From Candidatus Odyssella sp. (GTDB lineage: Bacteria; Pseudomonadota; Alphaproteobacteria; Bin65), in contig JAEULD010000125.1 in NCBI GenBank assembly GCA_016792765.1, forward strand, positions 1-34,793: 34,793 nucleotides of DNA, read 5' to 3'. This document shows, piece after piece, positions 28,400 through 34,793 of the stretch (the first letter of the stretch is position 1; every line of letters starts with the position of its first letter). The translations under genes were made by a program, and so were the position numbers. A model generated the notes under the pieces. It saw only the letters and a program-made list of their open reading frames with translations, did not search any database and was not told the DNA's origin.

Positions 28400-28413
28400 T
28401 TGACGTGAGTCAA
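28400..28413. promoter_or_regulatory. FNR/FixK/Anr-type binding site
   Basis: TTGAC-GTGA-GTCAA is a perfect inverted repeat with the half-sites and 4-base spacing of the FNR/FixK/Anr family. It lies 154 bases before the heme-protein ATG. If it acts at the usual -41.5 position, transcription would start near 28448. Low-oxygen activation of the downstream operon is the natural inference. The regulator gene is not in the window. Confidence 0.65.
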
Positions 28414-28566
28414 GGCACGAGCCAGACAAAGGTGAAATCTTGATTGTTCATTCAGAGGCCACGGCGTGGCCGGCGATCCTGCAAAGGGGGTCATCGCAGC
28501 CGCATCTTCCAACTCCCACCGACGACAACAGCCGCTGATCCAGCACGGATCGCGAGGAGGCACGCA

Positions 28567-29988
28567 ATGAAGCGAACGCTCCCCTATCTTGCACTTGTCG
28601 TATTCGTCGGTGTGCTCGGCCTGTCCTGGATCACCCACGGCACCGGTGTCGTCAAGAACGACCCGAAACGCCACATCAGCATCCCCGCCCAATTGACGGT
28701 CCCGCTGCAGGTGCAGTCCGCTTACAACGGCACCGACGTGTATTTCCGCTATCGTTGGCCTTCGCCGAACGCCGGCATTCATCACGACGTCCTGCGCTTC
28801 ACCAAGGGCGCCTGGGTCGTGCAGGGTAGCGCCGTGCCCGGTTCGCAGCCGGACGGCCTGCATGAAGACCGGGTCGCCATGATGGTCGACGACGGCAGTG
28901 TTCCCGAGTTCGGCCGCTACGGCGGCTACGTCGCGATCGGAAACAAGCTCGCCGGTTTCACCGACGAAGCCAGCGGGCGGGAAGTACGCGAGCATCCCTA
29001 TCTCGGGAAGAAACTCGGCCTCGATGAACCGACAAAGTATCTGCCGGCCACGCGCACGAACCTCAAGGATTGGACCGCCGTCGCGCCCGAGGCGGAGCAG
29101 CAACGCCTGTTGGCGGCCGGCTACTTCCTGGATCTCTGGCATTGGCGCGCCCACCGGTCGAATCCGGTCGGGCTTGCCGACGACCAGTACGTCGCGGCGG
29201 GCCGTCTGAGCGATTCGGGACGCGGTGCCTATACGACCAACTGGGACGGCGCGAAAAAGCAGCCGCGACTCATGTTCGATCCGGCCAAGGTCGGCCGAAC
29301 CACGCTCAAGTGGGACGACCTCGCGAAAGGCAAGATCGGACAAGGCGACGTCTATTACCTACGTGAGGACCAGGCCATTGCCTTCGATGCCGCCGCGACA
29401 TGGCAGGAGGGCGATACGATCCCCCGTCGAATCCTGCGCGCGGCCCAAGGTTCCCGCGCGGATATCGGAGTCAGCGGGCAGGCCCGCTGGGCCGACGGTT
29501 TTTGGCAGGTGACGCTGCGTCGCAAGATGGATACGGGGAAGCCGACCGAAGACAAGATTTTCCGCGACGGCGGGGTCTATCAGGTGGCGTTCGCGATTCA
29601 CCGACAGGCCACCGGCGGGCGTTGGCACTACGTCTCGCTGCCGTTCACGCTGGGGCTGGGCCGTGAGGCCGAAATCCAGGCCGCGAAGTTCGAGGGCGAA
29701 GCGCCGGATTGGCGTCAGGCCGCCGTCAACGTCACGCTCTTTTACCCCGGCCAGGTCAACTGGCCTCATCTCAACAGCGCACGGCATGCCGGAGCCTCCA
29801 ACATCAAGCGGGGCGTGCCTGTCAGGTACCGCCATAGCGAAGAGCAGCTCGCCCACTATGGAATCGAAGCCGAGTTCACAGACGCGATACGCGGCCAGTG
29901 GCTGCTGACGATGCTTGCCGGGATCGCGCTGATCGTGGCGTTCGGCGTCGGCCTCAATCTTCCGCTCAAGCGCAAACAAGGACACTGA
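28567..29988 (+). CDS. Membrane-anchored heme b protein, ethylbenzene-dehydrogenase gamma-like
   Basis: A 473-residue protein with one membrane segment at each end (about residues 5-25 and 445-463) and a large domain between them, probably periplasmic. The middle resembles the cytochrome c-552/DMSO-reductase-type heme-binding domain (EB_dh): QSAYNGTDVYFRYRW near residue 50, HEDRVAMMVDDG near residue 99, the characteristic LDLWHWRAH at about 188-196 and a beta-rich C-terminal half. The protein has no cysteine, so it cannot bind heme through CXXCH; family members hold a b heme non-covalently. Catalytic molybdenum partners of such gamma subunits are absent nearby, so it more likely acts in electron transfer with the adjacent DUF2231 protein. 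The ATG at 28567 has GAGGAGG upstream; DUF2231 follows after 2 bases. An FNR/FixK-type box precedes it. Confidence 0.75.
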   Translation: MKRTLPYLALVVFVGVLGLSWITHGTGVVKNDPKRHISIPAQLTVPLQVQSAYNGTDVYFRYRWPSPNAGIHHDVLRFTKGAWVVQGSAVPGSQPDGLHEDRVAMMVDDGSVPEFGRYGGYVAIGNKLAGFTDEASGREVREHPYLGKKLGLDEPTKYLPATRTNLKDWTAVAPEAEQQRLLAAGYFLDLWHWRAHRSNPVGLADDQYVAAGRLSDSGRGAYTTNWDGAKKQPRLMFDPAKVGRTTLKWDDLAKGKIGQGDVYYLREDQAIAFDAAATWQEGDTIPRRILRAAQGSRADIGVSGQARWADGFWQVTLRRKMDTGKPTEDKIFRDGGVYQVAFAIHRQATGGRWHYVSLPFTLGLGREAEIQAAKFEGEAPDWRQAAVNVTLFYPGQVNWPHLNSARHAGASNIKRGVPVRYRHSEEQLAHYGIEAEFTDAIRGQWLLTMLAGIALIVAFGVGLNLPLKRKQGH

Positions 29989-29990
29989 CC

Positions 29991-30542
29991 ATGGCTGCCT
30001 ATCATGTCGTCCTGGTTCACTTCCCGATCGCGCTCTGGATGACGGCGGGACTGGCGATTGTGTTCCGCGCCATCTCCGAGGGCCCGGTGGCCAAAGCCGT
30101 TGACCGCGCGCTCGTTCCCTTTCTCGCGATCGGCTTCGTCTCGGGTATCGCGGCGTACGCGGTGGGCCTGCTGGTGTGGCCGTGGGAGTCGCTCTCGTCG
30201 TCGCCGCTTGGCCGCAACCACATGCTGCTTGCGACGTGGACACTCGCCTATTGGGGGCTGATCCTCGTGACGCGCTGGATGCAGGGCGAGGCCGTGTGGA
30301 ACGGCTTCATGCGGTGGGTGATGGCCGGGCTGGCAATCCTCGGCAACGTCCTGCTCGGAATCACCGGCACCCTCGGCGGCCATCTCATCGGGATACACAC
30401 CGAAGTCTCCCAAGCCCTGCGCGTCCTCGGCTGGGAAGTCTACACCACGTTCTACGTGCCGGACACGACGCTGATCGCGATTTGCGTTGCCAGCGTCGTC
30501 CTTCTCGCAGCCGGCCTGCTGGGCGCACGACGGGCAGCATAG
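29991..30542 (+). CDS. DUF2231 integral membrane protein
   Basis: A 183-residue inner-membrane protein with about five hydrophobic segments (residues 6-27, 41-63, 76-96, 107-131 and 159-178). Its N-terminal YHVVLVHFPIALW is typical of DUF2231. Histidines H5, H10, H77, H131 and H136 lie in or next to membrane segments and could ligate heme or a quinone site; that is inference from placement only. The ATG at 29991 has AAGGA upstream and follows the heme-protein stop by 2 bases, so the two genes form one operon. A plausible role is passing electrons between the quinone pool and the partner's heme domain. Confidence 0.8.
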   Translation: MAAYHVVLVHFPIALWMTAGLAIVFRAISEGPVAKAVDRALVPFLAIGFVSGIAAYAVGLLVWPWESLSSSPLGRNHMLLATWTLAYWGLILVTRWMQGEAVWNGFMRWVMAGLAILGNVLLGITGTLGGHLIGIHTEVSQALRVLGWEVYTTFYVPDTTLIAICVASVVLLAAGLLGARRAA

Positions 30543-31487: not shown

Positions 31488-32546
31488 TCAGGCGACCGGG
31501 GCCTTGCGGCCGACGAGGCAGACGATCTCGGTCGGGCCCTTGCCCTTCAGATCGACCTGGCCGAGCGAGCGGCCCTGGCACGACGCGCCGAGAAACGGCC
31601 ACAGCGCGCCGGTGACGACGACGGTTCCCGGCTCGGCCTCGGCCGCGACGCGCGCCGCGACGTTGACGGTATCGCCCCAGAGATCGAACACGAAACTCCG
31701 CTTGCCGAGAATTCCCGCCACGATCGGCCCCATGTGGATGCCGACGCGCACCTGCCAGCCGGCGCCGTGCGCCTTCGCCGCCTCGGCCATGGCGAGGCCG
31801 CACTCGGCCGCCGCCAAGACCGGGTTCTCGACGTAGCGCAGCAACCCCGCCGTGGCCATGAAGGCGTCGCCGATCGTCTTGATCTTCTCGAGGCCGTGAC
31901 GATCGACGATCGCCTCGAACGCCGCTACCAGCGCCTCGAGCCGCTCCAGCACGGCTTCGGGCGCGTTGCCGTCGCAATATTCCGTGAAGCCGACGATGTC
32001 GCAGAACAGCACGGCGACCTCGTCGTGCCGGCGCGGCGCGAGGCGGCCGCTCGTCTTCAGCTCGCTGACCACGGATTTCGGGAGCACGCTGTGCAGCAGG
32101 TCGTTGACGCGCGCCTTTTCGGCCTGGAGCTGGGCGAGGAACTTCGCTTCCTGGTCGCGCAGGCGCTTGCGCTCCAGCGCCGCTTCGACGCGCGCGCGCA
32201 GCAGCTCGGCGTTGAACGGCTTCTGGACGTAGTCCTCGGCGCCCAGCTTGATGCAGCGGAGCACCGTCTCGAGATCGTCGAGCGCCGAGACCATGATGAC
32301 CGGCACGTCGCGCAGCGCCATGTCGGCTTTCATCTCCGCGAGCACCGCGGTGCCGTCCAGCTCCGGCATCTGCACGTCGAGCAGGACGAGATCGAACGGC
32401 GCGGCCCGGAGCGCCTCGAGCGCGAGCCTGCCGTTCTGCGCCGCGGCGATCTCGGCTTTCGTGAACTGCTTGAGCCGCCGCTGCAGCGTGAAGACGTTGT
32501 CGTCGATGTCGTCGACGACGAGAATGCGCGGAGGCCGCTCGGCCAT
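31488..32546 (-). CDS. Receiver domain-adenylate cyclase fusion (class III)
   Basis: A 352-residue response regulator with a cyclase output. The receiver spans about residues 7-125, with phospho-acceptor D57 in LVLLDVQMP and Lys in VQKPF. A coiled-coil-like helix (about 125-160) leads to the class III catalytic domain (175-350). The six key residues are all in place: metal Asp D183 and D227, adenine-selecting K223 and D288, and transition-state N295 and R299, with the same spacing as well-studied adenylate cyclases. It should therefore make cAMP under phosphorelay control. Its ATG overlaps the stop of the stand-alone receiver gene (TGATG), and the hybrid kinase is upstream, so this is the likely output of the operon. 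Confidence 0.92.
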   Translation of the reverse strand: MAERPPRILVVDDIDDNVFTLQRRLKQFTKAEIAAAQNGRLALEALRAAPFDLVLLDVQMPELDGTAVLAEMKADMALRDVPVIMVSALDDLETVLRCIKLGAEDYVQKPFNAELLRARVEAALERKRLRDQEAKFLAQLQAEKARVNDLLHSVLPKSVVSELKTSGRLAPRRHDEVAVLFCDIVGFTEYCDGNAPEAVLERLEALVAAFEAIVDRHGLEKIKTIGDAFMATAGLLRYVENPVLAAAECGLAMAEAAKAHGAGWQVRVGIHMGPIVAGILGKRSFVFDLWGDTVNVAARVAAEAEPGTVVVTGALWPFLGASCQGRSLGQVDLKGKGPTEIVCLVGRKAPVA

Positions 32547-32909
32547 CAGCGCGCCCCGCCGAGCAGGCGCTGCATCTTCTCGAGCAGGCGCGGAAGATCG
32601 ACCGGTTTGGTCTCGAAATCGTCGCAGCCGGCCGCCAGCGCCTTGTCGCGCTCGCCTTCGAGCGCATGCGCCGACAGCGCGATGATCGGGATGCCGCGCG
32701 TGCCCTCGGCGGCCTTGAGCCGGCGCGCCGCATCCCAGCCCGACAGCACCGGAAGGCTGAGGTCCATCAGGATCAGCGCGGGCCGCTCGCGCTCGGCGGC
32801 GGCCACGCCCTTCTCGCCGTCCTCGGCCACGATCATCTCGTAGTCGAGCTTGGTCAGCCGGCGGCGGAGCATATAGACATTGTCTTCGTTGTCTTCGACG
32901 TAGAGAATC

Positions 32910-32917
<8 letters not shown>
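32546..32917 (-). CDS. Single-domain response regulator (CheY-like)
   Basis: A 123-residue stand-alone receiver domain. The acidic pair is in YVEDNEDN (residues 6-13), the phospho-acceptor is D52 in LILMDLSLP, and the conserved Thr/Ser and Lys positions are in ALSAHA and ETKPVD. It has no output domain, so it probably shuttles phosphate or modulates the kinase. It overlaps the hybrid kinase by 8 bases upstream and the cyclase by one base downstream. Confidence 0.93.

Positions 32918-34793
<1,876 letters not shown>

Follow-up and report, generated by a model that had tools for sequence, protein, structure and literature searches.

The analysis of the window, by which we mean the whole 34,793-nucleotide stretch of a Candidatus Odyssella sp. 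contig, points to two adjacent genes whose products would form a single membrane-bound b-type cytochrome complex that moves electrons between quinone and the periplasm, is induced by low oxygen or NO, and is found mostly in nitrate-respiring or denitrifying hosts, a reading that we hold with reasonable though far from full confidence. It draws on the obligate pairing of the genes, FNR boxes, a permutation accompanied by loss of Cys with retention of His, ligand conservation in 70/70 members, NapC/NirT-linked c-type relatives, a fold match to the heme-b proteins NxrC and EbdC, His residues on the periplasmic face of the DUF2231 partner, a higher frequency of nosZ and narG among carriers, correlated distance matrices, and a palindrome that also precedes ccoN/fixO in the same genome. 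The pair is a genuine, conserved variant of EB_dh electron-transfer proteins whose electron-transfer function is likely but unproven, and it probably serves as a respiratory device for low oxygen that has gone undescribed; the open-access full texts searched for DUF2231, PF09990 and PF09459/EB_dh contain no description of it, and one may exist elsewhere. PHROGs gave no match. Such a device would provide a function for a DUF2231 subfamily, extend the low-oxygen branch of many Proteobacteria by an electron-transfer unit not described so far, and offer a natural case of c-type heme sites turned b-type with the iron-binding His retained.

The first gene (28567..29988, plus strand) encodes a 473-aa EB_dh-family protein, recognized by the PF09459 profile, a structure model, and PDB fold matches, and 2 nt after it the second gene (29991..30542, plus strand) encodes a DUF2231-like membrane protein of 183 aa with five predicted transmembrane (TM) helices. 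An earlier, sequence-only reading had described a stand-alone two-gene operon with no alpha or beta subunit nearby, and the survey of related loci bears this description out. A single scan of 84,980 genomes yielded 74 loci, of which 72 were testable (the contig continues and the hit falls within this EB_dh clade; window included), and at all 72 a DUF2231-like gene lies directly 3′ of the EB_dh gene on the same strand, with a spacing of −4 to +13 nt except at locus L009, where an apparent frameshift ends the EB_dh frame early. The hosts are Alpha-, Beta-, and Gammaproteobacteria, the flanks vary from locus to locus, and the DUF2231 gene is the only shared neighbor. In the window, rpsB, tsf, pyrH, frr, an M50 protease gene, and lpxB lie on one side of the pair, and a DsbA-like gene and two-component genes lie on the other. 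No molybdoenzyme subunit is present among the window neighbors identified, and the Mo alpha and FeS beta subunit genes that would partner a gamma subunit are likewise absent as shared neighbors of the related loci. Within the family of Halomonas campaniensis (275 genomes), the EB_dh gene is present in 43 genomes and the DUF2231 gene in the same 43 plus one; in that extra genome the contig ends within the EB_dh gene, so that any carrier of one gene among the 275 has both. The pairwise-distance matrices of the two proteins are also correlated (r = 0.79, permutation maximum 0.16), with shared ancestry explaining part of this value. The pair is an obligate unit, probably translationally coupled, under an FNR/FixK-type box. 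Just past the DsbA-like gene, response-regulator, adenylate-cyclase-like, and hybrid histidine-kinase genes follow in a run on the minus strand (31488-34778). In one genome of the Marinobacter genus (G180), the EB_dh gene occurs twice, in equal-scoring copies placed far apart.

The box itself is, as the first reading had reported, a perfect palindrome, TTGACGTGAGTCAA (28400..28413, no strand assigned), an exact match of the FNR/FixK/DNR type that lies 153 nt 5′ of the EB_dh start codon. Sites of the TTGACGTGAGTCAA type occur 12 times in the organism's own genome (4.6 Mb) vs 0.9 expected from base composition, and the same palindrome precedes ccoN/fixO (COX1-FixO, the cbb3 oxidase gene pair) elsewhere in that genome. 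This excess, together with cbb3, Usp, and SQR-like neighbors, indicates that the window palindrome goes beyond chance and is in keeping with an FNR/FixK regulon. The perfect TTGACN4GTCAA site before ccoN/fixO is at L097 (G000:C259); another, at L094 (G000:C183), has a universal stress protein (Usp) gene on one side and ftsH on the other, and a third, at L100 (G000:C294), adjoins an SQR-like oxidoreductase gene. By examining the 180 nt 5′ of 68 EB_dh genes for the pattern TTGAN6TCAA, with random windows from the same loci as the control, we identified exact matches in 25/68 upstream regions vs 0.3% of random windows, and matches with zero or one mismatch in 47/68 vs about 5%. The box has a median position of −88 and the consensus TTGA(T/C)N4(A/G)TCAA. 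Its conservation across loci lends independent support to a predicted FNR/FixK/DNR-type control of the pair, and the proposal of an oxygen-regulated module, here of the oxygen/NO type, gains by it.

The membership of the first protein in the EB_dh family is well supported, with a score of 171.4 bits against Pfam PF09459 (gathering cut-off 33.3, E 4e-50) and matches to this profile in 37/37 relatives. It contains no Cys in its 473 residues, as had been stated, and the description of it as double-anchored is plausible given TM helices predicted at residues 4-25 and 438-471, at the N- and C-terminal ends. The structure model (pLDDT 87) gave significant PDB fold matches only to 7b04_C (NxrC) and 2ivf_C (EbdC), with low TM-scores. 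These gamma subunits of the type II DMSO-reductase family have in common with the window protein the EB_dh fold, the lack of heme-attaching Cys, and an expected non-covalent heme b; the window protein shares about 10% identity with them and differs in its TM anchors, in long insertions and an additional segment at the C-terminus, in a His that seems to occupy the Lys ligand position, and in the absence of Mo alpha and FeS beta subunits. The claim of an ethylbenzene-dehydrogenase-gamma-like heme domain stands for the EB_dh part and fails for the gamma likeness, since the profile of the DMSO reductase family type II heme-b gamma subunit (TIGR03477) scores 19.8 bits, under its cut-off of 169.85. 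The proposed kinship with molybdoenzyme gamma subunits also gives way, as NapC-associated c-type EB_dh cytochromes stand closest to the protein among relatives without the permutation, and the notion of a gamma subunit that lost its partners is not supported.

These c-type cytochromes (e.g., L003, L081-L085, L088-L090) have a homologous beta-sandwich domain, with 36-40% core identity in the nearest ones, and several are linked to NapC/NirT: such a cytochrome is fused to or adjoins the EB_dh protein at L089, L090, and L003, while the L088 protein adjoins an octaheme/cytochrome b561 protein. They share with the window protein the LFYPGQ...HxGA...(CxxC)H segment and the residues H345 and H354, and differ from it in segment order, in the presence of the CxxCH/CX3CH Cys, in the lack of the two TM anchors, and in their partner, which in the window is a DUF2231-like protein instead of NapC/NirT or a multiheme cytochrome, in a two-gene operon with an FNR box. 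The segment that is N-terminal in the c-type proteins (LFYPGQ...HxGA...CxxCH) is C-terminal in the window protein, where codons 384-437 (29716..29877, plus strand) read LFYPGQ...H407AGA...RYRH423. The family profile matches all nine c-type proteins examined in a non-collinear manner, with HMM positions of about 378-426 falling on target residues 70-120 and positions 44-374 on residues 145-481, and hhalign relates the C-terminal segment to the c-type N-terminal one with 98% probability (E 2.9e-13). Un-permuting the protein in silico was uninformative (173.0 against Pfam EB_dh, compared to 171.4 for the native order, 172.6 when only the core is scored, and 171.6 when the segment is shuffled), so that the permutation claim rests on the non-collinear profile match and hhalign. 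The second c-type motif, CX3CH, reads GGYxxxG in permuted members, heme-attachment motifs of either kind occur in 0/70 members, and 64/70 have no Cys whatsoever.

A quick core-domain tree places all permuted members in one group (support 0.967) beside the c-type proteins, and, rooted on the NapC fusions, a root that we assume, it suggests that the b-type form arose from the c-type one. The loss of Cys with both site His (H407 and H423) invariant suggests that the c-type hemes became non-covalent b-type hemes. Sequence comparison shows the EB_dh protein to be related to the diheme c-type EB_dh cytochromes, Cys-free and permuted in its segments but with their His ligand positions kept, and the first description of it had missed both the permuted order and the second, Cys-less His/His site. 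The permuted group includes a degraded paralogue at L086 (3559-4929, minus strand; one fragment labelled c_L086), which is placed divergently as a second copy, has no DUF2231 partner, and is broken by a stop codon; in its YPGQ segment (QWLHREEHPG) it looks nearer to the c-type form.

Residues M105, H192, H354, H407, and H423 are kept in 70/70 EB_dh members, and H345 and H354 are common to all nine aligned c-type relatives. In NxrC and EbdC, the ligands of the EB_dh heme b are a Met and a Lys (PMC8387239, PMC8840923), which in NxrC are Met155 and Lys305 (PMC8387239). K330 was considered as an EbdC-type Lys ligand and dropped, as it aligns with Q280 of 7b04_C (NxrC) and not with K305; in the alignment, the Lys ligand region of NxrC appears to match H354. 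We infer that the beta-sandwich pocket holds one heme b with the candidate ligands H354 and either M105 or H192, and a second heme b is probably bound at the candidate site H407/H423. One pocket ligand of the c-type proteins, the His of CX3CH, has no counterpart at that position in the permuted protein, a point that weighs against the proposed complex.

The DUF2231 assignment of the partner is real but weak at the level of sequence profiles. The window member scores 20.2 bits against PF09990, under the gathering cut-off of 26.4, and 36/37 relatives reach the profile at E<=0.1, the best of them at 6e-8, over most of the domain, so the match is family-wide; compared with other PF09990 proteins, the window type is always paired with a permuted EB_dh protein. 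The structure model (pLDDT 90) has five TM helices and found no fold match below E 0.001, and a profile search of the PDB gave none at E<=5. The term "His-rich" used for this protein is fair only as four conserved His positions: H5 and H10 are invariant, and H77 and H131 are about 90% conserved. Positive charge is highest in the TM1-2 loop, the TM3-4 loop, and the C-terminus, which by the positive-inside rule places the N-terminus and all four His on the predicted periplasmic face. The idea of redox-type domains in the pair, with putative heme binding, is supported. Since the literature searched holds no characterised DUF2231 member, a quinone site on this protein is a guess.

Building on the observed pairing, box, permutation, Cys loss, and His conservation, we infer the heme b, the quinone contact, the direction of electrons, and the acceptor or partner in the following mechanism. 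Low oxygen or NO would switch on the expression of the pair. The EB_dh domain would reside in the periplasm, tethered by its two TM helices and holding heme b, while the five-TM partner would form the part of the circuit that lies in the membrane, where quinol is its probable partner in electron exchange, and would take the role that NapC/NirT-type cytochromes have for the c-type relatives; its likeness to NarI/NapC-type quinol-oxidising membrane cytochromes lies in the proposed role only, as a membrane electron-input module under FNR control. Electrons would then travel through the hemes of the EB_dh protein, either into or out of a periplasmic partner such as a cytochrome c, a cupredoxin, or a denitrification reductase. 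A bolder and distinctly tentative extension is that the pair represents a new class of all-b-type, NapC-independent quinol:periplasm oxidoreductases, in which a permuted diheme c-type cytochrome turned b-type and DUF2231 was recruited as the quinol dehydrogenase of a two-gene module for nitrate/NO respiration.

The link of the pair to nitrate respiration is statistical and incomplete, a tendency and not a rule. Among 51 host genomes, narG is present in 34 and a full TIGR04244 NosZ in 24; in the genome that the window comes from, two narG are present and a full-length TIGR04244 NosZ is lacking. In the Halomonas campaniensis family, nosZ is found in 28/43 carriers vs 53/232 non-carriers (P = 2e-7, kinship ignored) and narG in 36/43 vs 127/232 (P = 3e-4, kinship ignored), with nosZ absent in 15/43 carriers; the Marinobacter genus is a weak control, with nosZ in 9/9 carriers vs 77/115 (P = 0.056, kinship ignored). 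This enrichment in nitrate respirers, along with the FNR-type control, would also suit a module that acts in its own right as a terminal reductase or a detoxification enzyme, in which the DUF2231 protein supplies electrons from quinol and an open-site heme uses them to reduce an oxidant such as a small N-oxide. The pair stands alone, with no conserved reductase gene found downstream of or beside it across the related loci, a result that also counts against the proposed electron carrier, and the loss of the CX3CH His from the EB_dh pocket could leave an open site. We nevertheless consider such an enzyme unlikely, because the EB_dh domains whose structures are known belong to subunits for electron transfer, in which the protein provides two ligands to the heme iron (PMC8387239, PMC8840923), and because other invariant ligands, M105 and H192, are on hand.

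A tie to flavin-based electron transfer across the membrane, by PepSY/DUF2271/ApbE or ferric-reductase-like systems that would carry electrons from cytosolic NAD(P)H to the periplasm, is improbable: PepSY_TM-flavodoxin-reductase, PepSY_2, DUF2271, ApbE, or Ferric_reduct genes lie near the pair at roughly a dozen loci that span several lineages with differing gene order, and DUF2271 is a substrate of ApbE (PMC8238504), but most loci, the window included, have no such neighbors, and several of those that do are close relatives (Rhodobacterales). Equally doubtful is a heme-free EB_dh protein in a structural, sensory, or metal-binding complex, an idea that can appeal to the loss of every Cys attachment site and to a heme that is so far a prediction, but the His/Met set conserved in 70/70 members, including both former CxxCH-site His, is hard to explain without a cofactor, and the respiratory regulation and hosts also speak against it. 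The flavin-linked genes near the pair (PepSY_TM reductase, PepSY_2, DUF2271, and ApbE, or Ferric_reduct with a Cyt-b5 protein) were observed at L010, L011, L030, L032, L038, L040, L057, and L075, and at L050, L054 (Halomonas campaniensis), L060, and L080.
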